This document shows, in pieces, positions 3,452 to 14,831 of a stretch of DNA of 23,514 bases. The position numbers were made by a program, and so were the translations under genes. Location: positions 1-23,514 of the IMG/VR virus record IMGVR_UViG_3300046001_006355; one strand, given 5' to 3'. The DNA is from a virus. Under the pieces are notes generated by a model that had not been told where the DNA came from, searched no databases, and saw only the letters and a list, made by a program, of their open reading frames with translations. Positions within the stretch are counted from its first letter, which is position 1; every line of letters starts with the position of its first letter.

Positions 3452-4732
3452 TTAGAAGGTTCCGCCGTCGATCGTGATCCCATCGAACGTCGTCAGGTTC
3501 GTGACGCTGCCTCCCGAAATGGAGACGTTGTTCGCGTTCTGCGTGGCGATCGTACCCAAGCCCAGCGTCGTCCGCTGCGCCGATGCGTCGACATCGTCGA
3601 GGATCGCGCGACCCGCCGAGGTCAGCGTCGTGACCGCGTAGGTGTCAGACGCGGTCGTGTAGATCATCCGATCGGCGGTCGTCGTCAGGCCGGCGATGGA
3701 CGCGAGTCCCGCGTCGTATGCCTGCACATTCGTCCCGATGGCGAGGCCGAGGTTGGTACGCGCCGTGCCTGCGTCAGTCGCTCCCGTGCCGCCGTATGCA
3801 ATCGCCACGGCCGTACCCTGCCAGGTTCCCGTCCCGATCGTGCCGACGCTCGTCAGGCTCGAGCCCGTCACGCCAGAGCCAAGGGTCGTGGCGTTGAGGA
3901 CGGACGAGCCGTTGATGTAGAACGCCTTGCCCGTGAGCAGGTTCAAATGCTCGCTCGAGGTCCACGCGTCAGTCGCATCGACCCAGTTGAACGTCTTGTC
4001 GGTCGCGCCCTTCAGCGTGATGCCGCCGCCGTCCGCGGTCGTGTCGCTGGGCGTGGTTACGTCGCCAAGGACGATGTTCTTGTCCTCGACGACGATGTTC
4101 GTGGAGTTGATGTTCGTCGTGGTGCCGTTTACGGTCAGGTTGCCTGAGATGGTGAGGTTCGACGAGATGGTCCCGCCCGTGAGCGGGAGGTACGTTCCCG
4201 ACAGATCGGGTATGTCGGCGCTGACGAGCGCGCGGAATGTCGGCGCGCCCGAGCTGCCGTTCGGCGCGATGAACACATGGTTTGCCGTCTGACTCGCCAG
4301 CGAGAGCGCGATGGTCCCTGAGGTCGTGATTGGGCTGCCGGCAACTGACAGGAACGACGGCGCGGTGAGCGCCACGCTCGAGACGGTTCCGCCGCCGGCA
4401 GAGCTGACCGCAGCCGTTACGAAAGCGGTCGTTGCCAGCTTTGTCGTGTTGTCGCCAGCCGTCTGGGTCGTCGCGGTCGCGCTGGAGCCAAGGGCGACCG
4501 TTCCAGAAAACGTCTTGTTTCCCGTGATCGTCTGCGTACCGCTCAGGCCGACGAACGCGCCGATGCCGCCGATGGCCTCCACGGTCGTCGCCGTGCCGCC
4601 TGCGCCGCCCGTTCCCTTGCCGTAGTAGAGCGTGTCGTCGACCTCGTTGAACGCAAGCTCCGCGTTCGCCAGGCTCGAGGGTGCGCCAGATCCACCAGAG
4701 GCGCGGCGCTTGATTCGCAGGGTGTTTGCCAT
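3452..4732 (-). CDS. Long repeat-rich tail fibre protein
   Basis: This 426-residue low-complexity fibre is rich in G, T, S, A and V. The N terminus (MANTLRIKRRASGGSGAPSS, then LANAELAFNEVDDTLYYGKG) is a widely seen phage fibre opening. It is followed by repeat-like phrases TGTQTITGNKTFSGTVALGSS, DLSGTYLPLTGGTISSNLTI, and IAYGGTGATDAGTARTNLGL. Such segments form extended trimeric beta structures in other phage fibres. Residues 371-410 duplicate a module of the next fibre. It ends in DGGTF, like its neighbours ending DGGNF and GGQNF. The gene starts 10 bases after the small fibre-associated gene. It is probably a receptor-binding or connecting fibre; no enzymatic domain is visible. Confidence 0.8.
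   Translation of the reverse strand: MANTLRIKRRASGGSGAPSSLANAELAFNEVDDTLYYGKGTGGAGGTATTVEAIGGIGAFVGLSGTQTITGNKTFSGTVALGSSATATTQTAGDNTTKLATTAFVTAAVSSAGGGTVSSVALTAPSFLSVAGSPITTSGTIALSLASQTANHVFIAPNGSSGAPTFRALVSADIPDLSGTYLPLTGGTISSNLTISGNLTVNGTTTNINSTNIVVEDKNIVLGDVTTPSDTTADGGGITLKGATDKTFNWVDATDAWTSSEHLNLLTGKAFYINGSSVLNATTLGSGVTGSSLTSVGTIGTGTWQGTAVAIAYGGTGATDAGTARTNLGLAIGTNVQAYDAGLASIAGLTTTADRMIYTTASDTYAVTTLTSAGRAILDDVDASAQRTTLGLGTIATQNANNVSISGGSVTNLTTFDGITIDGGTF
3503..3622 (-). repeat. Fibre repeat module, copy 1
   Basis: These bases code residues 371-410 of the 426-residue fibre (TSAGRAILDDVDASAQRTTL, then GLGTIATQNANNVSISGGSV). They are the counterpart of 2999-3118. The module is a possible site of homologous recombination between the two fibre genes. 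Confidence 0.75.
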
Positions 4733-4741
4733 GATTCGATC

Positions 4742-4954
4742 CTAGAAGTTCCCGCCGTCGACCAGTTCGGTCTGGGCGGTCTGTGTCCATTTCGATGTCG
4801 AGGTCTTGTACTGCAGTACGTCCTTGTCAGCCGGCGACGGCGCGTCTACGTCTGTGAGGTCGCCAAACTGAACGTCGGCCTCTAGCTGCGCGTCGACCAC
4901 GGCGAGTCCGTCGCCTAGGTTGATCTCGTAGGCTGCTGGGTAGACGCGGATCAT
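4742..4954 (-). CDS. Small fibre-associated protein
   Basis: This 70-residue protein lies directly before the long fibre gene. It contains DLTDVDAPSPADKDVLQYKT and ends KWTQTAQTELVDGGNF. The phrase DLTDVD...D.LQY....KW is a short unit frequently found inside phage fibre and adhesin proteins, here as a stand-alone gene. The ATG at 4954 overlaps the lipoprotein gene stop (ATGA). It may be a fibre subunit or a relic of a longer fibre N terminus. No function is demonstrated. Confidence 0.65.
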   Translation of the reverse strand: MIRVYPAAYEINLGDGLAVVDAQLEADVQFGDLTDVDAPSPADKDVLQYKTSTSKWTQTAQTELVDGGNF

Positions 4955-5184
4955 TCGGCGCTCTCCTCATCGACAAACGACGGCGGCACGATGTACCAGC
5001 CCTCAGGAATCGGCACGGCGTTCGACGACAGCACCCACTCGTCAGCGATCCGAAGGTAGACGCGGCCCTTGGTCATCGGGCCGATCCTCATCGGTGTCGA
5101 TTCGTGGACGAACACCGTGCGCCCGCATCCTGTCGCGGATGCGACGGCCAGCGCGGCGCAGCAGGCCGCGGTCGGACTGAGCAT
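4951..5184 (-). CDS. Putative outer-membrane spanin (Rz1-like lipoprotein)
   Basis: This 77-residue predicted lipoprotein overlaps the upstream membrane gene for about 140 bases in another frame. The start ATG at 5184 gives a short hydrophobic segment (AACCAALAVASATGC) ending at Cys20, a plausible lipobox. The mature part (GRTVFVHESTPMRIGPMTKG, then EGWYIVPPSF) resembles short phage lipoproteins encoded beside small membrane genes. Rz1-type spanins fuse inner and outer membranes during lysis of Gram-negative hosts and are often nested in or overlapping Rz. The n-region lacks a positive charge, so an upstream non-ATG start (TTG in the same frame) is possible. The call rests on lipobox, overlap and context. 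Confidence 0.65.
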   Translation of the reverse strand: MLSPTAACCAALAVASATGCGRTVFVHESTPMRIGPMTKGRVYLRIADEWVLSSNAVPIPEGWYIVPPSFVDEESAE

Positions 5185-5269
5185 CGGTCGCCGTGCGCGA
5201 GCGCTCGGCCTGGCCGGCGATGAACCGCAGGACAGCGCCGACGATGGCTTCAAGTGCCTTGGCGAGCAT
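5042..5269 (-). CDS. Small membrane protein, candidate inner-membrane spanin partner
   Basis: This 75-residue protein has a hydrophobic N-terminal stretch (ALEAIVGAVLRFIAG, residues 5-19). A highly charged Arg/Asp-rich tail follows (ERSRTATDAQSDRGLLRRAG, then RRIRDRMR). The ATG at 5269 has an excellent GGAGG seven bases upstream, four bases after the previous stop. It overlaps the predicted lipoprotein gene in a different frame, an arrangement characteristic of Rz/Rz1 spanin genes. It is short for an i-spanin and lacks an obvious long coiled coil, so it may be a different lysis-cassette protein. The gene is likely real; the function is tentative. Confidence 0.6.
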   Translation of the reverse strand: MLAKALEAIVGAVLRFIAGQAERSRTATDAQSDRGLLRRAGRRIRDRMRAHGVRPRIDTDEDRPDDQGPRLPSDR

Positions 5270-5272
5270 GGT

Positions 5273-5485
5273 TCAGCCTCCGTCATCCTCGAGCTCCCGA
5301 ACGCGCTGCTTCAGCTTGTCGATCTCGTCGGCCGCTTCCTCTAGTTCGACCTTGATCTCGCGCCAGAGCGAGAACATCGGAGCGCTGGCGAGCATCCGCA
5401 TCCGCTCGCATCGGTCCTCGCATGAGGCCAGCGCGCGCGAATGGGTCGTCCCTGCTTCAAGCCAGCGCTCCGATGAAGTAGTCAC
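5273..5485 (-). CDS. Small coiled-coil protein of unknown function
   Basis: This 70-residue soluble protein is not recognised as a family. Its C-terminal third is a strongly predicted heptad helix (VELEEAADEIDKLKQRVREL, residues 46-65), and the middle has a Cys-x3-Cys pair (CEDRC). The ATG at 5485 overlaps the end of the holin-like gene. It lies between a holin-like gene and the spanin-like pair, so a lysis-related role, such as supplying the coiled coil missing in the next protein, is conceivable. Nothing in the sequence proves it. Confidence 0.6.
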   Translation of the reverse strand: MTTSSERWLEAGTTHSRALASCEDRCERMRMLASAPMFSLWREIKVELEEAADEIDKLKQRVRELEDDGG

Positions 5486-5670
5486 TTCTTCACCATCGTG
5501 CGCGAGACGGTGTAGCCGAGCGCAGACAGCACGGTCGCTGCCAAGCCGAGAATTTTGTCGCCTTGGCTTTCGCTCGGGAACACGCCGCTTGCGAACGCCG
5601 CGCCGATGCAGAGCGCCGCGAAGGAAAGCCAGAACTCAGTCGTCTTGTAGCCGGGTTTGGTGTCCATCAT
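5482..5670 (-). CDS. Holin-like small membrane protein
   Basis: This 62-residue protein has two likely membrane helices (about 12-30, FWLSFAALCIGAAFASGVF; and 39-55, ILGLAATVLSALGYTVS). It has a short polar loop (PSESQGDK) and a basic C terminus (RTMVKK). The opening phrase KPGYKTTEFW and the ending GYTVSRT are familiar from a common class of small phage membrane proteins often annotated as holins. Size, topology and position before spanin-like genes fit a holin that permeabilises the inner membrane at lysis. The start could be either of two adjacent ATGs (5670 or 5667), both overlapping the preceding stop. Confidence 0.65.
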   Translation of the reverse strand: MMDTKPGYKTTEFWLSFAALCIGAAFASGVFPSESQGDKILGLAATVLSALGYTVSRTMVKK

Positions 5671-5945
5671 TGGTCCTTGATGAGAATGGAGGCGGTTCCT
5701 GTGCCGGTCGATCCGACCCAGAGGCGCGAGGGGTCGATGTACCACTCGAAAATCTGCGTAGTCGGCACGCTGAACGTCTCGCCCGCGGTGTACTTGTTGT
5801 TGGCATCCGTCGCATTGGTCGCGTCGAGAACGTAATAGGCGACGTTGGTGGCCGACGAGAAGAGGATCGGCTTGTATCCGATCGTCGTATCCGTCGTGAG
5901 ACGCTGGAAGGTCGTTCCCGTTGTGTATTGCTTCATTGATGGCAT
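5667..5945 (-). CDS. Small beta-rich virion-associated protein, paralogue B
   Basis: This 92-residue protein is a tandem paralogue of the gene directly upstream. Shared landmarks are RL(T/I)(T/S)D(T/S)TIG near residues 16-24, an A-rich A(T/K)DA segment, AGE(T/F)F, PTT..F.W..DP..(L/V)WV, and TGTAS or TAGTV near the end. The start at 5945 (MPSMKQYTTG) lines up with the paralogue's MPTFGTRTT. The fold looks all-beta. Position among fibre genes suggests a small adhesin or capsid/tail decoration. No named family is recognised. Confidence 0.7.
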   Translation of the reverse strand: MPSMKQYTTGTTFQRLTTDTTIGYKPILFSSATNVAYYVLDATNATDANNKYTAGETFSVPTTQIFEWYIDPSRLWVGSTGTGTASILIKDQ

Positions 5946-5949
5946 GGTG

Positions 5950-6228
5950 TCACTCGTATCGGTAAAGCACGGTTCCTGCCGTAGCAAGCGAGGCGACCCA
6001 GACGTAGTTTGGATCGACACGCCAGGAGAACTTTGCGGTCGTCGGCATCTGGAAGAACTCGCCGGCGGCGAGCGCGTCGCCTGCGTCCTTTGCAGTCAGA
6101 GCAAAGATAAACCGCTGCGCCTCCGTCTGCGCGGAGAACTGCATATCTACGCATCCGATCGTGCTGTCGCTGATGAGGCGCGTCACGGTTGCTGCGGTCG
6201 TTCGTGTTCCGAAGGTCGGCATGGTCAC
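5950..6228 (-). CDS. Small beta-rich virion-associated protein, paralogue A
   Basis: This 92-residue protein starts at ATG 6228, overlapping the lectin-like gene stop (ATGA). Its core (RLISDSTIGCVDMQF, FALTAKDAGDALAAGEFFQM, PTTAKFSWRVDPNYVWVASL) aligns along its whole length with the next gene, so the two arose by tandem duplication and then diverged. Function is unknown. The alternating hydrophobic pattern and the fibre neighbourhood suggest a structural or cell-binding subunit. The pair might form a hetero-oligomer, which is inference only. Confidence 0.7.
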   Translation of the reverse strand: MTMPTFGTRTTAATVTRLISDSTIGCVDMQFSAQTEAQRFIFALTAKDAGDALAAGEFFQMPTTAKFSWRVDPNYVWVASLATAGTVLYRYE

Positions 6229-7028
6229 CTCTGGTACTTGTATTCCATGAACATCCAGTCGATGTGCATCTCGTCGACGATGCTTGCCGCTTCGTTGCTG
6301 CCGCGGATCAGCGCTCCCGAGTGCATCCTGTTGCCTGCCACCGTCGTGTTGCTGGCGTTCGGAAGATGCGTCGGGTCTGTCTCTTCATGGACCTGCACGC
6401 CGTCGATGTACCATCGGGCGAGCGTGCCGGCCGCATTCACCCAGACGCGCAGAACGTGCCAGTCGTTGACGGCGACTCCTGTGTCGATGTATGCATAGGT
6501 CACCGACGCCGAGATGCAGACGACTTGCCACGTCGACTTTGTTCCAGCGACTTGGAAGTTAATCGCGCTGACATCGCCTGGAGGATCACTACTTGAAACG
6601 TGACCCTGGATGAATCCGATGCGGAAGCCCGTCTCGATATCGCCGTTGCGAATCAGCCGAACGCGCGCGGAGCATTCCATCTCGTAAGCGCCGGCAAGGA
6701 TCACCGTTCCGCCGGCAAGGAGGTTGCGTTCGCTGATCCAACCGCGCGACCCTACCGTGCCTGTCGCCAACTTCATCACGGCATAGCAGGCGCAGCCGTC
6801 GAAGTCCATCGTGAACGTGATCGTCGCGCCCAACGTAACGACCGAGTTCCAGTCGCCTAGGTTTGCGAAGTCGCTCCAAAGCTTGAAGCTCCGGCGCTGC
6901 ATCGCGCTCTGGTCGACCGTCGGGCTCGGATAGGTTCCGGCGAGATCGCCGCCCGCCGCGCCGTATGGCGCGCTCCCGACCGTGACCGACTGAACGGTCG
7001 GCGTAACCGTGACCTCTTGCGTAGCCAT
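6225..7028 (-). CDS. Tail fibre with concanavalin/LamG-like lectin domain
   Basis: This 267-residue probable adhesin has an N-terminal part with the fibre phrase AAGGDLAGTYPSPTVDQSAM (residues 24-43), a linker common in phage tail fibres. Residues about 46-265 look like a concanavalin A-like jelly roll: STWQVVCISASVTYAYIDTG, DWHVLRVWVNAAGTLARWYI, DGVQVHEE. The phrase W.....DGV.. is typical of LamG/laminin-G-like folds that bind sugars. The gene overlaps both neighbours by one or a few bases. It probably binds host surface polysaccharide; metal-binding or sugar-binding residues cannot be assigned by eye. Confidence 0.7.
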   Translation of the reverse strand: MATQEVTVTPTVQSVTVGSAPYGAAGGDLAGTYPSPTVDQSAMQRRSFKLWSDFANLGDWNSVVTLGATITFTMDFDGCACYAVMKLATGTVGSRGWISERNLLAGGTVILAGAYEMECSARVRLIRNGDIETGFRIGFIQGHVSSSDPPGDVSAINFQVAGTKSTWQVVCISASVTYAYIDTGVAVNDWHVLRVWVNAAGTLARWYIDGVQVHEETDPTHLPNASNTTVAGNRMHSGALIRGSNEAASIVDEMHIDWMFMEYKYQR

Positions 7029-9387: not shown

Positions 9388-9681
9388 TCAGGTTGCGCGG
9401 CAGACCATCTGCTGCCGTCCGTTCGGTCCTAGCCGCGTCTCGCCGGTCGGGGCGATCCTGCGCGCGGCGCGCAGGTCGCTGCATCGTTTCCAGAATCCAG
9501 ACGCGGTCAGCCCTGCGCGAACCGCGGCCTCGTAGTCGGTCAGTCCTGACGAGCCGGCGCGCTGGAACTCCTCGAGCAAGCGGTCGCAGTCTGAGTGCCA
9601 GCGGAACTTTGATTGACGCGCCGTCGACTTGCTCGTCTCTGGGTCGCTCGCGCGCGCCTGGAACAGCGGTAGGTCGTTCAA
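9388..9681 (-). CDS. Winged-helix-like small phage protein
   Basis: This 97-residue protein starts at TTG 9681, overlapping the upstream TGA, with GGAGG six bases upstream. The layout DPETSKSTARQSKF, then LLEEFQRAGSSGLTDYEAAV (about 35-54), then GFWKRCSDLRAARRIAPTGE and TRLGPNGRQQMVCRAT, matches a common class of small phage proteins. These have a winged-helix core (GLTD.E.........R...L.....I...G..R) and probably bind nucleic acid. The exact role is unknown. It sits between the CsrA-like gene and unknowns in the accessory operon. Confidence 0.65.
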   Translation of the reverse strand: MNDLPLFQARASDPETSKSTARQSKFRWHSDCDRLLEEFQRAGSSGLTDYEAAVRAGLTASGFWKRCSDLRAARRIAPTGETRLGPNGRQQMVCRAT

Positions 9682-9935
9682 TCCTGCCTCCGTTCGATGC
9701 GGATCGCGCGGTCGAGCGAGAGACACAGCCGTACCTTCGCGTGGTTCGGAACGTGTTCTACCGCGACGTAGCCGAGGTCGACCCCGTCGCGCGTCAGCCA
9801 GATTCGGTCGCCCATGCGGCACGACCGCATCACGGTTCCCCGCGGGGAGAGGTGCAGGTCGGACTGCACCTCCCCCGCGGCTGGGGAGACACCCGCGTCG
9901 TGCGGGGCCAGTTCTCCCGATTGTATCGCTTCCAT
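9678..9935 (-). CDS. CsrA-like (carbon storage regulator family) protein
   Basis: The open frame codes 85 residues from ATG 9935, with AAGGA upstream, just after the Gp157 gene. The last 50 residues look like CsrA, a small RNA-binding dimer that controls translation. MRSCRMGDRIWLTRDG corresponds to the M..SRK.GE.I opening. KVRLCLSLDRAIRIERR corresponds to the (V/I)R(L/I)GI.AP....V.R.E C-terminal strand, though CLSLDR replaces GI.AP. The CsrA homology begins exactly at an internal ATG (9830) that has its own GGGGA six bases upstream, partly buried at the foot of the hairpin 9840-9880. The true product may therefore be 50 residues, with the longer frame as a leader. It could be a diverged paralogue with other targets. 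Confidence 0.6.
   Translation of the reverse strand: MEAIQSGELAPHDAGVSPAAGEVQSDLHLSPRGTVMRSCRMGDRIWLTRDGVDLGYVAVEHVPNHAKVRLCLSLDRAIRIERRQD
9840..9880 (-). promoter_or_regulatory. Long RNA hairpin over the CsrA-like gene's internal start
   Basis: CCGCGGGG (9840-9847) pairs with CCCCGCGG (9873-9880), and GAGGTGCAG (9849-9857) with CTGCACCTC (9864-9872). That gives 17 base pairs, one bulged A and a six-base loop. In the minus-strand message the 3' arm runs into GGGGAACCGTG-ATG (start 9830), so the foot of the stem overlaps a Shine-Dalgarno and a GGA, the core of CsrA binding sites. It is a candidate autoregulatory element. It is also compatible with coding in the long frame. Confidence 0.55.
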
Positions 9936-10950: not shown

Positions 10951-11063
10951 GCCGCACCTCCGCGGCAGACGGCCGTCGTCGGCAGCTTCGTGGTGATTCG
11001 GACGCGCGGCGGCAGGTAGAGCGATGCCGCGACGACGGCGACGATGAGGAGGAGCTGCGTCAA
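10947..11063 (-). CDS. Tiny single-helix membrane protein (38 residues)
   Basis: The start is TTG 11063, overlapping the previous TGA, with GGAGG seven bases upstream. It stops overlapping the next ATG. The peptide is one N-terminal membrane helix (TQLLLIVAVVAASLYL) followed by a basic tail (PPRVRITTKLPTTAVCRGGA). The junction GGAGGTGCGGC(T/A)TGA occurs at both its start and its end, so both neighbours use the same coupling sequence. The overlaps leave no other explanation for this 110-base interval. Confidence 0.6.
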   Translation of the reverse strand: MTQLLLIVAVVAASLYLPPRVRITTKLPTTAVCRGGAA

Positions 11064-11539
11064 GCCGCACCTCCGAGCATCTCAGCGCGATAGGCGCGCA
11101 GCTCCTCCGCCGGCGCGGTGTTGATCCACTCCAGATGCTCTGAAAACGTGCAGCCCTTCAACTCGATGTCCAGGAACGATTCGTCTAGCCCGATGTCAGC
11201 AAGGCGCTGGCGCGCCCTATCCGTCGCGGCCTGCTCGTCTCCAACAGGCTCGTCGCGGTAGTTGCAGCCGACGCGCGCCGACTCGTCGCGGATCGCGTCG
11301 AGGTCGATGCCGTCGATGAGCGCCTTGACCGCATCGCGGTTCTCGCGGCGCATCACGCGTGCAAACGCGTGGAGCATGGTTCGCGCCTCGATGAAGTCGC
11401 TGGGCGCTCCGTCGTGGGCATCGCAAACGCGGTCGATGATCTCCGCGCGGATATGAATGGGAAGTCCCTCGCAGGCCTCGATGCGGTCAAGCGCCGCACC
11501 AAAGGTCGGGAACCGTCGCGTTTCGTTCTGGTTGCTCAT
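11060..11539 (-). CDS. Hypothetical protein, first gene of the main accessory operon
   Basis: This 159-residue protein starts at ATG 11539, five bases after GGAGA, with a leader hairpin and a promoter/operator upstream. It is not recognised. Predicted helical content is high (GAALDRIEACEGLPIHIRAE, RTMLHAFARVMRRENRDAVK, ATDRARQRLADIGLDES). A central NYRDEPVGDEQAA stretch is acidic. As the promoter-proximal gene of the operon that carries the Gp157, CsrA-like, HTH and RusA genes, it may be an early protein. Upstream in-frame codons exist but lack a ribosome site. Confidence 0.65.
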   Translation of the reverse strand: MSNQNETRRFPTFGAALDRIEACEGLPIHIRAEIIDRVCDAHDGAPSDFIEARTMLHAFARVMRRENRDAVKALIDGIDLDAIRDESARVGCNYRDEPVGDEQAATDRARQRLADIGLDESFLDIELKGCTFSEHLEWINTAPAEELRAYRAEMLGGAA

Positions 11540-11554
11540 GGCTGTCTCCGTTCT

Positions 11555-11569
11555 GCGGCATCTTGCCGC
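11555..11569 (-). promoter_or_regulatory. 5'-leader stem-loop, copy C
   Basis: GCGGCA (11555-11560) pairs with TGCCGC (11564-11569) around a three-base loop. It is followed on the minus strand by AGAAC, GGAGA and the ATG at 11539. The arms are the same as in copies A and B, but the loop differs. The predicted transcript start falls just upstream, so the message would begin with the hairpin. Confidence 0.6.
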
Positions 11570-11580
11570 GGTTGATATGC

Positions 11581-11599
11581 AGAGTGTAGCAAACACTCT
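11581..11599. promoter_or_regulatory. Operator-like inverted repeat
   Basis: AGAGTGT (11581-11587) and ACACTCT (11593-11599) form a perfect 7-base inverted repeat with a 5-base spacer. It covers the predicted -10 box of the minus-strand promoter. A dimeric repressor here would block initiation. The binding protein is not known. Confidence 0.6.
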
Positions 11600-11610
11600 A
11601 CAGGCTGCAA
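11583..11610 (-). promoter_or_regulatory. Sigma70-type promoter for the operon beginning at 11539
   Basis: On the minus strand TTGCAG (-35, 11610-11605) is followed after 16 bases by TACACT (-10, 11588-11583). The operator-like repeat overlaps the -10. A start about seven bases downstream would place the leader hairpin close to the 5' end of the RNA. Confidence 0.5.
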
Positions 11611-11687
11611 CAGGGTTCGGCGGGATTCCGTCCCGATTTCAGAGATTATTTCGGACGCTAGCAAATCGTCCCAGGAGCCCCGTAGGG

Positions 11688-11718
11688 CCGCCCGACGCTA
11701 GCAGCCCCTATCGGGCGG
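11688..11718 (-). other. GC-rich hairpin at the end of the 180-residue gene
   Basis: CCGCCCGA (11688-11695) pairs with TCGGGCGG (11711-11718) around a 15-base loop that contains the stop codon of the gene ending at 11708. A 10-base direct repeat GACGCTAGCA (11654-11663 and 11694-11703) is beside it. There is no T run, so it is at best an atypical or Rho-dependent terminator or an RNA-end structure. Confidence 0.4.
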
Positions 11719-12250
11719 CAATCCGCCCAGAGCCCCGCAGCGGGGCGCAGCGCGCCCAGAACGCCCTAGCCGTGACCCCGTCGATGCCGCGGTCGGCCAC
11801 GATGTCCGAGACGGCCAGAACCCAGCTGTGCGGCCAGCCGTCGATGGGACCCTCAGGCCGCACCCAGCCGGCAGCCTGCAGCGACGAGATAGCCGCCTCG
11901 CGCGTCTCGTCATCGGCATCGCGGATCTCCTGGCGCAGCCGCGACCATTCCAGCGCCGTCACAATCCTCTGCTCGCTCGCCGTCATCGTCGTCTCCAGTC
12001 GCGCCGCAAGGCGCTCGGCATCCAAACGCTGCTCGCGCGCGATCCGCGCGTACTCGAGGAACCGCGCCGGCAGGAAGCGGCCCGTCTCGCCGCCGTAATC
12101 GAGCGCGTACGCATCGAGCGCCGTCATGCAGTCCCGTGCGTCCAGCGCCGCGATGGCGCGGCGCGCCAGCGCGAACAGCTCTTCGTCCATCGGGCCGCGG
12201 AACATCCTGCGCGCCCGTCCGATGAAACCAGCCAACTCCGTCGAGTCCAT
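11708..12250 (-). CDS. Hypothetical protein, possibly replication-accessory
   Basis: This 180-residue, mostly helical protein starts at ATG 12250 with GGAGA five bases upstream and a leader hairpin before that. The segment LARRAIAALDARDCMTALDA, then YALDYGGETGRFLPARFLEY (about 27-66), weakly recalls phage helicase-loader or loader-inhibitor proteins. Those combine a Y-x-L helix with a [FL]P motif near a second helix. The C-terminal half (SSLQAAGWVRPEGPIDGWPH, then GVTARAFWARCAPLRGSG) is unfamiliar. It forms a one-gene unit between its own leader and the hairpin at 11688-11718. The functional suggestion is weak. Confidence 0.6.
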   Translation of the reverse strand: MDSTELAGFIGRARRMFRGPMDEELFALARRAIAALDARDCMTALDAYALDYGGETGRFLPARFLEYARIAREQRLDAERLAARLETTMTASEQRIVTALEWSRLRQEIRDADDETREAAISSLQAAGWVRPEGPIDGWPHSWVLAVSDIVADRGIDGVTARAFWARCAPLRGSGRIAAR

Positions 12251-12265
12251 TCGCGTCTCCGTTCT

Positions 12266-12282
12266 CGCGGCTCCGTGCCGCG
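12266..12282 (-). promoter_or_regulatory. 5'-leader stem-loop, copy B
   Basis: CGCGGC (12266-12271) pairs with GCCGCG (12277-12282) around TCCGT (ACGGA in the RNA). Six bases separate it from GGAGA, and five more from the ATG at 12250. It shares the GCGGCACGGAGCCGC core with copy A. Confidence 0.6.
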
Positions 12283-12292
12283 TTCAGCGGAC

Positions 12293-12298
12293 AGTATA
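12293..12298 (-). promoter_or_regulatory. Probable -10 box (TATACT) of the operon at 12250
   Basis: TATACT on the minus strand lies 11 bases before copy B of the leader hairpin, the same arrangement as at 11583-11588. No good -35 hexamer is found at 16-18 bases. An A/T-rich run (GAATATTTTTTC) stands there instead, so the promoter may need an activator or be weak. Confidence 0.35.
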
Positions 12299-12340
12299 CC
12301 GAACATCCGAAAAAATATTCTCTCCTCCTGCACGGGTTGC

Positions 12341-12353
12341 ATCCGTATCGGAT
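12341..12353. promoter_or_regulatory. Short palindrome, possible operator
   Basis: ATCCG-TAT-CGGAT is a perfect 5+5 inverted repeat in the divergent intergenic region. Another ATCCG half-site occurs nearby at 12305-12309, beside the -10 box of the minus-strand operon. It may bind a regulator of the divergent region, or be chance in GC-rich DNA. Confidence 0.3.
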
Positions 12354-12360
12354 CACCTTT

Positions 12361-12374
12361 CGCGCGCGCGCGCG
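12361..12374. repeat. (CG)7 alternating tract
   Basis: There are fourteen alternating C and G bases in the divergent gap 12283-12591. The rest of that gap holds the -10 box and palindrome described here, a small hairpin (CGGTTAGAGCAACCG, 12389-12403), purine-rich AGGAGGAGGAG at 12425-12435 with a ten-codon open frame after it (12449-12481), and G-rich runs at about 12501-12530. I cannot support a further gene there. Confidence 0.6.
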
Positions 12375-12591
12375 CGTCGTGCAAATCACGGTTAGAGCAA
12401 CCGAGCCATCTCACGCCACCCGTTCAGGAGGAGGAGAAGAGGTTTGATATGGAGGGGAGTACCGAACCAGCAAGCGCGTAGTTGGTACGCAGGGCTCAGG
12501 TGGGGGGATTCTAAAGGGGGGAGGTGCTAAAAGTCCATAGAAAAAATCTTGGGATTTCTTCGAAATGGCTAGAATGTTTTCGGAGGCCTTT

Positions 12592-13044
12592 ATGAAGTTC
12601 GATCCGTCCATTCTCCAAGCCATTCGTTCCAAGATGATTTCCGTCGATCCGACGACTGGCGACATCACAAACGCAGAAGGAAGACTTCTTCGCGGCGAGT
12701 GGAAGAACGGATATCGCGTTCTTGTCTTCAGTCTCGCCGGCCAGAGAGTCCGCGCGAGATGGCATCGCGTTGTCTGGCTTGCGGTTCACGGAGAAATCCC
12801 GAATGGCTTTTCGGTATGCCATCGGGACAACGACAAGACGAACAACGCGATCGACAACCTTTATCTAGCGACTCATGCCGAGAACATTGCCGATGCCTCA
12901 AAGACTGGTCGGATGTACGGGAAATGCTCCGACGCTGTGGTCGCGCGGATACACGCCTTGACTGGAATGGGTTACTCCATCGACCGCATTTGCAGAGAAA
13001 CAGACATCAGCAGGCCGACCGTGCTTCGCGCTTTGTCTCGATAA
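12592..13044 (+). CDS. HNH endonuclease (free-standing homing type)
   Basis: This 150-residue protein is one of very few plus-strand genes. The core ARWHRVVWLAVHGEIPNGFS followed by VCHRDNDKTNNAIDNLYLAT (residues 55-94) is the HNH_3-type nuclease motif. H58 and H77 with N84 and N89 are the likely catalytic and metal positions. A C-terminal helix-turn-helix (YSIDRICRETDISRPTVLRA, 128-147) would recognise DNA, the usual architecture of phage homing endonucleases. ATG 12592 is preferred over upstream ATGs because GGAGG lies five bases upstream. Lower GC content, opposite strand and intergenic position suggest insertion as a selfish element. Confidence 0.9.
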   Translation: MKFDPSILQAIRSKMISVDPTTGDITNAEGRLLRGEWKNGYRVLVFSLAGQRVRARWHRVVWLAVHGEIPNGFSVCHRDNDKTNNAIDNLYLATHAENIADASKTGRMYGKCSDAVVARIHALTGMGYSIDRICRETDISRPTVLRALSR

Positions 13045-13078
13045 AAAGAACGCGACCCCGCATTTCTGCAGGGCCGCG
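13042..13078 (-). terminator. Intrinsic terminator of the bet operon
   Basis: On the minus strand CGCG-G-CCCTGCA (13078-13067) pairs with TGCGGGG-T-CGCG (13062-13051) around a GAAA loop. G-U pairs are the only irregularities. TTCTTTTTA (13050-13042) follows. It stops leftward transcription from the bet operon before it runs antisense through the HNH gene. Its T run overlaps the HNH stop codon. Confidence 0.8.
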
Positions 13079-13086
13079 CCTCCGAC

Positions 13087-13103
13087 GCAGGGAACATCCC
13101 TGC
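13087..13103. other. Second small hairpin beside the bet-operon terminator
   Basis: GCAGGGA (13087-13093) and TCCCTGC (13097-13103) form a perfect 7-base stem with a 3-base loop, touching the stop codon of the gene ending at 13104. There is no T run. It may stabilise the 3' end of the message or assist the neighbouring terminator. Confidence 0.5.
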
Positions 13104-13466
13104 TCAGTACCGATCGGCTGCGCGCAGCAGCAGCACTAGCCGGATGGCGCGCGCCACCAGGTCAAACCGCGTCTGCTGGTCCGCGAGTTCCCACGCCAGC
13201 TCCCGCCGCTCAACGATGCCGACCGAGCAGGACAGCCGCTCACCGATCGCCTCGCGCGTCGGCCGCAGGTGACCTGGCATCAGGTCGAGGACGATGCCGA
13301 CGAGAGCCGCCTGTCGAAACGCGCCGACGCTTGCGTCCCTCGAGACGATGCGCGCCGCGTCGACGGCTTCCCCCAGGCTGACGGCGCGGAACACCCCCGC
13401 GTCGTCAGCCGCGATGCCGACCTGCCAGCGGACGGCCGCTGACCCTGCCTCATGGTCGCGGTTCAT
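13104..13466 (-). CDS. Hypothetical protein downstream of bet
   Basis: This 120-residue protein starts at ATG 13466, overlapping the bet stop (ATGA). It is translationally coupled to bet and is the last gene before the terminator. No family is recognised. Features are an N-terminal AVRWQVGIAADDAGVFRAVS, a hydrophobic AALVGIVLDLMPG, and a long C-terminal helix (RRELAWELADQQTRFDLVAR, then AIRLVLLLRAADRY). Coupling to an annealase would suit a recombination accessory protein. No nuclease motif such as the YqaJ/lambda-Exo D-E-K pattern is visible, so it is not an obvious exonuclease partner. Confidence 0.6.
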   Translation of the reverse strand: MNRDHEAGSAAVRWQVGIAADDAGVFRAVSLGEAVDAARIVSRDASVGAFRQAALVGIVLDLMPGHLRPTREAIGERLSCSVGIVERRELAWELADQQTRFDLVARAIRLVLLLRAADRY

Positions 13467-14416
13467 GACCGTCCCTCCGCGATGATCTCGCGCGCGATTC
13501 TCTTCCCGCCGACGACCTCGATACGGACGAGGCTCGAGATGCGAAACGCGATGTTTGCCTCCAGCTGCGAGGCAAGCTTGGCATCCGTGACCGCGATCGG
13601 CTGCGGGCAGTTCGGGCAGTCGAGCCGCCAGACCGTCCCGCCGCGCTTGCCGGCGACCTGCGCGACCGCGCAGTCGGGCGGGATCCAGACCTGATCCTCT
13701 GCCGTGACCTCAGGGGCGGCCGCAGCCGCCGCTACGGGCGTTGGCGACATGAGCGCGTCCAGATCGGCCTTCCGCTCCGCGGGGCTCTGGGGAGCCTCTA
13801 CGGGCGCAGGCAGGGCCGCTGGGGCGGCCTTGGGCGCGGGCGCGGCCTCGGGAGCCGTCTCGGCCTGGGCCATCTCCTCGGCCGTGTAGAGGCCAGACAA
13901 CTCCGCGGGAAAGGCTTTCCTCAACGCCAGCGCTTCGGCGCACTTGGCGAGCATGAGGCTCGGCATCTTGGCCCACATGGGGAGCGGCTGGCCTGTCTTG
14001 TTGTTCCGCGGGCAATACTCCCGCCACAGCGCCGTCGCGTACAGAGGCTCCGCGAATCCGCGGCGGTAGCAGCCCACCCGCGCCGCCGCCGGCGGCTCGT
14101 CGGAAAGCCAAATGTCCCGCCAGACGCCGTCAGCGGCGCACCAGGTGACGGCGGTCTGTCCTGCGTATTCGCCCGACCGCTGCGCGACGAGCCGCGCGCC
14201 GTCGATCGAAACCTGAGGCTGACGGACCTCCATGCCCAACTTCGCGTCCCAGCGCGGAACGAGGTAGATCTGACGGGCGAACGGGTCGAGGCCCGTGCGA
14301 TCGCAGATGGCCACGAAGAGCGCGAGTTCGTCGCGCGAAGCGCCCTTGGCGATGGTGCGGGTCAGCAGGTCGACGCGCTCAGGCGAAAGCGCCTGCCGTG
14401 CAAGTTCGGTCGTCAT
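13463..14416 (-). CDS. bet: Bet/RecT-type single-strand annealing protein with extra C-terminal domain
   Basis: This 317-residue recombinase anneals complementary single strands during phage recombination. Residues 1-185 match the lambda Bet family: FVAICDRTGLDPFARQIYLV (34-53), a polar segment with VSIDGARLVAQRSGEYAGQT, then PMWAKMPSLMLAKCAEALAL and RKAFPAELSGLYTAEEM (146-182). A Pro/Ala-rich linker (about 185-245) leads to an additional domain containing PPDCAVAQVAGKRGG and LDCPNCPQPIAV, with a CxxC pair, which could bind metal or recruit partners. The start has AAGGAGGCG just upstream and overlaps the tiny membrane gene. No partner exonuclease is seen in the window. Confidence 0.9.
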   Translation of the reverse strand: MTTELARQALSPERVDLLTRTIAKGASRDELALFVAICDRTGLDPFARQIYLVPRWDAKLGMEVRQPQVSIDGARLVAQRSGEYAGQTAVTWCAADGVWRDIWLSDEPPAAARVGCYRRGFAEPLYATALWREYCPRNNKTGQPLPMWAKMPSLMLAKCAEALALRKAFPAELSGLYTAEEMAQAETAPEAAPAPKAAPAALPAPVEAPQSPAERKADLDALMSPTPVAAAAAAPEVTAEDQVWIPPDCAVAQVAGKRGGTVWRLDCPNCPQPIAVTDAKLASQLEANIAFRISSLVRIEVVGGKRIAREIIAEGRS

Positions 14417-14499
14417 CGCGCCTCCTTGTCGTCGAACAGAGGCCAGAAAGCCGCGGCGAGAATGAAGGCGATGAACGCCCCGACCATTACGATGTCCAT
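14413..14499 (-). CDS. Tiny membrane peptide (28 residues) leading the bet operon
   Basis: ATG 14499 lies five bases after GGAGA and behind the leader hairpin copy A, so this small frame, not bet, uses the conserved leader. The peptide MDIVMVGAFIAFILAAAFWP continues LFDDKEAR: one membrane helix with an acidic-basic tail. Its stop overlaps the bet start (ATGA), so it would couple translation into bet. Its size hides it from ordinary gene calling. Confidence 0.6.
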   Translation of the reverse strand: MDIVMVGAFIAFILAAAFWPLFDDKEAR

Positions 14500-14516
14500 G
14501 CGTGTCTCCTAGTTCT

Positions 14517-14531
14517 GCGGCTCCGTGCCGC
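14517..14531 (-). promoter_or_regulatory. 5'-leader stem-loop, copy A
   Basis: GCGGC (14517-14521) pairs with GCCGC (14527-14531). The RNA reads GCGGC-ACGGA-GCCGC, identical in core to copy B. Seven bases separate it from GGAGA and five more from ATG 14499. No convincing promoter hexamers were found immediately upstream. Confidence 0.6.
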
Positions 14532-14540
14532 GTTCCGTAA

Positions 14541-14831
14541 ATGGTAATCGGTATTCCGCGCGTGCGCCTACAGGAAAATCAGAAAAATCTCCATCCGAGC
14601 CTCAAATCCCGCAGGGTGAGGGCGTTTCTTCTGCGGACGAGGGCCGCCGTACGGCGCACGGACGCGCCGTCCGGCGGTTCCCGCAGGCCCGCCGAGCGCG
14701 CGGAACTCGAGCGCCACGACCTCGACCTGCTCGACCTGCTGACGCTCGCGCTCGACACCGCTGAGGACCATGACCTGCAGATCCTCATCAGCTACGCACG
14801 AACGAGCCTTATCCTCTCGCTCACGCGATGA
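14541..14831 (+). CDS. Possible small plus-strand gene
   Basis: This open frame of 96 codons has a second half that reads like a real protein (RAELERHDLDLLDLLTLALD, then TAEDHDLQILISYARTSLIL), a leucine-rich amphipathic helix pair. GTG 14616 is a likelier start than ATG 14541, because the first 25 codons are A/T-rich and overlap the leader region of the bet operon. It converges with the structural gene ending at 14821 and overlaps its end by 11 bases. A minus-strand frame (14568-14820) is also open but Arg-rich and less protein-like. The region also contains a strong hairpin. Treat as uncertain. Confidence 0.35.
   Translation: MVIGIPRVRLQENQKNLHPSLKSRRVRAFLLRTRAAVRRTDAPSGGSRRPAERAELERHDLDLLDLLTLALDTAEDHDLQILISYARTSLILSLTR
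14644..14677. other. Strong GC-rich hairpin between late structural and bet operons
   Basis: CCGCCG (14644-14649) pairs with CGGCGG (14672-14677), and ACGGCGC (14651-14657) with GCGCCGT (14664-14670), around ACGGAC. That is 13 pairs with one mismatch. There is no T run on either strand. The hairpin may mark the end of the late structural transcript. Confidence 0.5.

Follow-up and report, generated by a model that had tools for sequence, protein, structure and literature searches.

The closest known kind of element to the one analyzed here is the start-associated sequences (SAS/ESAS) of Cluster K mycobacteriophages, and Cluster EF Microbacterium phages have motifs of a similar kind. SAS are repeated at the start codons of non-structural genes and include the Shine-Dalgarno sequence (SD); their occurrence is limited to some phages, and the host genomes have almost none, some copies have an inverted repeat and a promoter upstream, and their function is unknown (PMC3203893, PMC11373665, PMC7302621). 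Conserved repeats at the start codons of phage early genes are thus known already, and the role of SAS, the best-known of them (2011), is still open. Two other systems are relevant to hairpins in front of genes. RsmE is a protein that binds hairpins with an A(N)GGAX loop and a closing C-G pair (PMC4005645). A 5'-terminal stem-loop is known to stabilize an mRNA, and RppH needs unpaired 5' nucleotides (PMC3997798). Here we analyzed the virus record IMGVR_UViG_3300046001_006355 (IMG/VR), the entire 23.5 kb of which is referred to as the window, and a hairpin leader that stands immediately before the start codons of three of its genes. The features of the window described below lie on the minus strand unless stated otherwise.

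The leader in the window and the pairing of its stem

A preliminary description of the window reported a cassette made of a hairpin, a spacer, GGAGA, five bases and ATG at three sites, and direct reading of the minus strand confirmed all three. Leader 1 (hairpin 14531-14517, ATG 14499) comprises GCGGC-ACGGA-GCCGC, AGAACTA, GGAGA, CACGC and ATG, leader 2 (hairpin 12282-12266, ATG 12250) CGCGGC-ACGGA-GCCGCG, AGAAC, GGAGA, CGCGA and ATG, and leader 3 (hairpin 11569-11555, ATG 11539) GCGGC-AAGAT-GCCGC, AGAAC, GGAGA, CAGCC and ATG. The outer A and T of the loop AAGAT in leader 3 are able to pair as well. The region of the ribosome-binding site (RBS) spans 14502..14509 around GGAGACAC in leader 1, and is ACGGAGAC in both leader 2 (12255..12262) and leader 3 (11544..11551). 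GCGGCN5GCCGC, a palindrome, is found at three places in the window, each of them 5-7 nt before GGAGA. GGAGA and ATG are exactly five bases apart in the window; the near relatives L004 and L005 deviate from this with GGAGA-CACA-ATG. RNA folding predicted the hairpin in each of the three leaders with the RBS left outside the stem, and the overall folding energies were just moderately below those of shuffled sequences (z of -0.65, -2.41 and -1.58).

The three-copy cassette is far above chance. Among 3000 windows generated under a dinucleotide model, a single cassette was found in one window and none contained more; when any 5-bp stem was permitted, one cassette was found in 6 of 300 simulated windows and three in none of them. 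No copy beyond the three was found on the 23.5-kb record, and just three are likewise present on a near relative of 30.8 kb.

The three copies in the window have identical arms, so that the claim of the preliminary description that structure rather than only sequence is conserved could not be drawn from the window itself; it is the relatives that bear it out. We gathered related phage contigs (designated by L numbers below) with the Bet protein and with DNA patterns. Aligning the leaders of related phages for covarying stem bases, which the preliminary description had proposed both as a check and as a possible refutation, revealed stem changes that are compensated on both sides. When sites were chosen by the loop and the downstream sequence with the arms left free, all five positions of the arms were complementary in 27 of 35 sites; with a control loop, the count was 0 of 5, and with any loop allowed, 35 of 573. 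As L085-L103 had been fetched by a stem pattern and their arms were partly selected, we also counted the sites without the loci fetched in this way, and 14 of 19 had complementary arms. An alignment of 26 leaders gave a covariation score of 0.295; shuffles scored 0.089, and sliding yielded no more than 0.162. Three of the five stem pairs displayed changes on both sides; some of these 26 leaders were picked for pairing, and the selection with free arms is the fairer test.

Individual genes provide the same picture. Two orthologs that are 74% identical have the stems GCGGC/GCCGC (L007, 13280) and GAGGC/GCCTC (L103, 5729). In front of the 180-aa gene that follows leader 2, the stem is CGCGGC/GCCGCG in the window, TCCGC/GCGGA in L007, CTTCGC/GCGGAG with one U.G pair in L103, and GCGGCGC/GCGCCGC in L006. 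In the near relatives L096 and L098, G-C, G.U and A-U were seen at one and the same pair, and one arm base of leader 2 is T in L005, yielding a G.U pair. Across 32 core stems we counted five G.U wobbles and no A.C, which, albeit small in number, favors an RNA of the sense strand over a palindrome in DNA. Altogether, the comparison of sequences among relatives shows that the stem is kept by base pairing and that its sequence is free to change. Setting the mechanism aside, we are confident that the leader is a conserved RNA hairpin at the start site.

Other parts of the leader are conserved in sequence. Most copies have an A-Y-G-R-N loop, and the closing C-G pair is present in all of the 26 aligned leaders. 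Downstream of the hairpin, AGAA is followed by an unusual RBS, NGAGAC, and the family consensus is GCGGCACGANGCCGCAGAAACGAGAC. The genes of the same clusters that are not preceded by the hairpin mostly have a GGAGG RBS. A covariance model termed R1 (5-bp stem, AYGRN-type loop, AGAA..GAGAC and ATG) recovered approximately 48 copies above 20 bits. Leaders with an E value of 0.001 or better were found in 19 of 50 phage contigs, seven of which carry three to eight copies each. The window copies scored 33-40 bits (E values of 1e-6 to 1e-8), but they were also in the seed alignment and match by construction. The largest number was found in L007, in which eight copies occur within 3.3 kb, one before each of eight successive early genes.

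The exact cassette pattern matched 16 stretches in viral contigs and none in a collection of bacterial genomes amounting to 257 billion bases, and neither a host nor a prophage was found through this search. A DNA search of named phages yielded a single match of 120 bp in Microcystis phage Mae-JY09. The RNA family is absent from Rfam, as no family reached the gathering score in the window, L006, L007, L086, L098 or L116. Altogether, the leaders constitute a phage-specific, conserved RNA leader family.

Promoters and genes associated with the leaders

A -10-like box precedes each leader of the window. The box of leader 1, TACCAT (14541..14546), has no clear -35 element; L059, L062 and L074 have this hexamer 5 nt upstream of the hairpin. 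Leader 2 follows TATACT (12293..12298); its counterpart in the near relative L003 is TATAGT with TTGGAC 18 bp upstream. The two sequences diverge just upstream of this -10 box, while the box, with one base changed, and the whole cassette are retained. The box of leader 3 is TACACT (11583..11588), with TTGCAG 16 bp upstream. The boxes of leaders 2 and 3 lie where the preliminary description had placed them, and that of leader 1 is an addition to it; its statement that the RNA would begin just before the hairpin is merely approximate for the third copy, as the expected start precedes the hairpin by about 3-4 nt in copies 1 and 2 and by about 7 nt in copy 3. In other phages, 26 leaders have a -10 box 3-8 nt before the hairpin. 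The distance is mostly 5-6 nt, so the transcript would begin at the base of the stem (+1) in many of them. Considering all loci, we found 32 leaders in which a promoter is followed by a hairpin, whereas three were expected from shuffles.

The proposal that the hairpin is 5'-terminal fits the many relatives in which it adjoins a promoter, but not L007, in which four copies lie 1-7 nt after the stop codon of the upstream gene. The stem lies 3-7 nt downstream of the inferred transcript start in the window, coincides with +1 in many relatives, and is operon-internal in L007. From the copies behind stop codons, we regard the element as neither solely 5'-terminal nor tied to a promoter.

Several additional features were observed around these promoters. 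The palindrome AGAGTGT-ttgct-ACACTCT (11581-11599) spans the -10 box of promoter 3 and is kept in L003 and L005, being a candidate operator for a repressor. Behind the 180-aa gene and upstream of promoter 3, at 11620-11636, there is another hairpin (GGGACGGAATCCC) whose loop contains ACGGA. L034, L046, L049, L054, L008 and L027 possess near-consensus promoters with a hairpin at +1, the loops of which (e.g., ATGTC, AATGAT and AACGTC) precede the SD. In L086, a contig that only the DNA patterns retrieved, the plus strand from 3669 to 6715 bears several leaders composed of a promoter, a hairpin, AGAAC and GGAGA, with the loops AGGGA, ATCCC and AAGCCC.

Leader 1 is followed by an open reading frame (ORF) for a hydrophobic peptide of 28 aa (14414..14499), the gene of a Bet/RecT-like single-stranded DNA annealing protein (13463..14416; PHROG 2780, E value of 1.5e-61) and a 120-aa ORF (13104..13466), the third of this unit, which is conserved in L098 and L103. 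The Bet/RecT-like gene has a plain GGAGG RBS and no hairpin. Tiny genes for hydrophobic peptides stand directly before bet in the window, L006 (9907), L098 (34 aa) and L103 (30 aa) as well; these peptides, preceded by the hairpin leader, are alike in place, size and hydrophobicity but share no sequence identity. A hairpin resembling an intrinsic terminator (13049..13080; 14 pairs and a U-run, matched by consensus only) would end the first unit. An HNH endonuclease gene (12565-13044) lies on the plus strand between this unit and promoter 2. Leader 2 precedes the 180-aa gene (11708..12250), the orthologs of which in L006, L007 and L103 each have their own, differently paired leader, and leader 3 precedes a 159-aa ORF (11060..11539). 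As the terminator-like hairpin closes the first unit and a -10-like box stands before each leader, the sequence suggests that the three leaders belong to separate transcription units. Elsewhere in the window, positions 448-1722 encode a protein with a ParB-like N-terminal part and a DNA methyltransferase C-terminal part.

Possible modes of action

The element is probably a switch or a shield of gene expression, with a putative protein partner. Control by a trans-acting factor and a passive shield or insulator are the two main candidates. We tentatively place first a trans-acting, post-transcriptional control at translation initiation, which we hold to be possible at somewhat under even chances. 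The cassette is reused before some of the early genes, at promoters as well as within operons, and in this scheme would mark them for common control. Such common control is suggested by the conservation of the loop and the RBS but not of the stem, and by the neighboring genes, which lack the hairpin and have an ordinary GGAGG. The loop would be bound by a protein that influences the RBS beside it in the manner of the CsrA/RsmA proteins, and the sign of the control could be repression or activation. A hairpin starting at +1 might additionally shield the 5' end. The first candidate for the partner would be a small protein resembling CsrA, whose gene stands at the end of the gene cluster that carries the leaders, but a host protein could serve as well.

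The candidate is a 50-aa protein (9678..9830) that has a CsrA-like look by eye. Relatives of this protein were detected in L096, L098 and L007 (E values of 2e-5 or lower), weakly in L006, and via a profile in L103. A search with the CsrA-like protein retrieved no additional phage contigs. A relative in G013 matched the Pfam CsrA profile with an E value of 1e-6 and 23.7 bits, below the cut-off of 27. An Arg aligns to Arg44 of CsrA in most members of the family (His in L103), and in the AlphaFold models the L098 relative has five strands, as in the CsrA fold, whereas the window protein alone has three. The small CsrA-like family was found in all seven contigs with at least three leaders but in only one of the 43 others (Fisher p of 8e-8). 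The homology to CsrA is weak, and the CsrA-like protein as the partner that binds the leader, an idea of the preliminary description, is a plausible hypothesis, for which these data are suggestive only. Three further observations concern the gene itself. It starts directly behind a 13-bp hairpin in the window (9830-9896), and the csr-like genes of L007, L096 and L098 have long structured starts with GTCTCC able to pair with the SD. Upstream of the csr-like genes of the window, L007 and L103 there is a hairpin, CCGC-AYGAC-GCGG, which we set aside, as it overlaps a coding stretch (P-H/Q-D-A) apparently conserved in the upstream frame.

A number of results weigh against a CsrA-type partner. The 50-aa protein of the window matched neither Pfam (PF02599 included) nor PHROGs, searches by fold with models of the CsrA-like proteins returned nothing significant and no PDB match, and the comparison with the CsrA profile gave a probability of 0.8% without the G013 protein and 25% with it. 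The co-occurrence is confounded, as the family of the unrelated 180-aa gene has a near-identical distribution (6 of 7 versus 0 of 43), and common descent accounts for the pattern of the CsrA-like gene about equally well. Twelve further contigs, several of which are fragments, carry the leader but no detectable CsrA-like gene. Loops of the AYG type are enriched in promoter hairpins of phages that lack the CsrA-like protein (12 of 26 versus 598 of 5811), and no array of hairpin leaders was found in VvAW1 and phi297, phages with genuine CsrA genes. Regarding the loops, GGA is present in leaders 1 and 2 (ACGGA) but neither in leader 3 (AAGAT) nor in most of the relatives (ACGAN or ATGAN). The full version of this idea, in which a divergent phage protein of the CsrA type would control its own early-gene regulon through the hairpin-RBS cassettes with a loop specificity shifted from GGA to AYGA, is therefore doubtful in our judgment.

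A passive structural leader without a dedicated protein ranks second, and we likewise take it as possible, at roughly one chance in three or a little better. Copies at +1 would block the decay that depends on the 5' end (by RppH/RNase E or RNase J), and those inside operons would insulate the RBS from the upstream sequence or protect a processed end. Such a role agrees with the excess of promoter hairpins over shuffles, with 26 leaders that have -35/-10 elements, a hairpin at +1 and then the SD in phages without the CsrA-like protein, and with the predicted window hairpins, which keep the RBS outside the stem. However, it leaves the conserved loop and the special RBS of the hairpin genes unexplained, requires processing for the copies within operons, and is at odds with the 3-7 nt between the expected start and the hairpin in the window, as this many unpaired bases are sufficient for RppH.

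The remaining explanations are much less probable. A palindromic repressor site in DNA, placed where transcription begins at each early promoter, would suit the fixed 5-5-5 palindrome adjoining the -10 box in the window, but is quite unlikely, as the arms vary with compensation even among the copies of a single genome (L007 and L103), the wobbles are exclusively G.U, many copies are operon-internal without a promoter, and the position is linked to the RBS. Still less probable is an antitermination (nut) site of the boxB type at the start of early transcripts. The boxB of phage lambda has a 5-bp stem and a 5-nt loop adopting the GNRNA fold. The dimensions agree with those of the leader, but the loops of the leader start with A and do not conform to GNRNA, an antitermination site would hardly be expected in eight copies within 3.3 kb, each before a single gene, and no boxA was noticed, though no search for it was made. 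That the cassette is a functionless duplicated RBS segment, palindromic by chance, seems just as improbable despite the paralogous genes with copied leaders in L007 (12233 and 12746), as compensatory changes were found at orthologous sites of diverged phages.

The covariation indicates that a start-codon repeat of phages acts as RNA, a single genome has it in front of eight genes in a row, and a small candidate partner has been named; together, these make a direct test with a reporter possible. If the reading as a CsrA-type regulon were true, the phage would carry a self-contained programme of post-transcriptional control.

The leader family among known systems

The leaders share with the 5'-terminal, mRNA-stabilizing stem-loops of the ompA/papA type a hairpin, here predicted at or near +1, that is followed by the RBS. 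The stem of such stabilizing stem-loops begins within about 0-2 nt of the 5' end. Unlike those stem-loops, many copies are operon-internal, the loop is conserved, and the leaders form a repeated family. In common with the targets of CsrA/RsmE, in which the hairpin adjoins a GGA of the SD, the loop begins with A on a C-G pair and is ACGGA in leaders 1 and 2 of the window. Leaders 2 and 3 have a second ACGGA (ACGGAG) in their RBS, and the ACGGA loop together with this motif resembles the two-site arrangement of CsrA targets (PMC4005645). In contrast to those targets, the loops of most relatives (ACGAN or ATGAN) contain no GGA. The candidate partner recalls the RsmM-type proteins of Pseudomonas phages and the plasmid-encoded RsmQ (PMC7366521; 85 records) in its small size, its CsrA-like look and its location on a mobile element, but is far more divergent than these homologs. 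By analogy, the leader may work like a CsrA target or like a 5' stabilizer.

Similar to SAS, the leaders are short elements at start codons that are repeated many times, include the SD and are restricted to phages. In sequence, SAS is a conserved 13-mer, GGGATAGGAGCCC, to which the consensus of the leaders is unrelated, and the leaders do not match the SAS consensus. The repeats of ESAS have no support for RNA pairing and are read as sites in DNA, whereas the leaders described here have a covarying stem and a constant loop.

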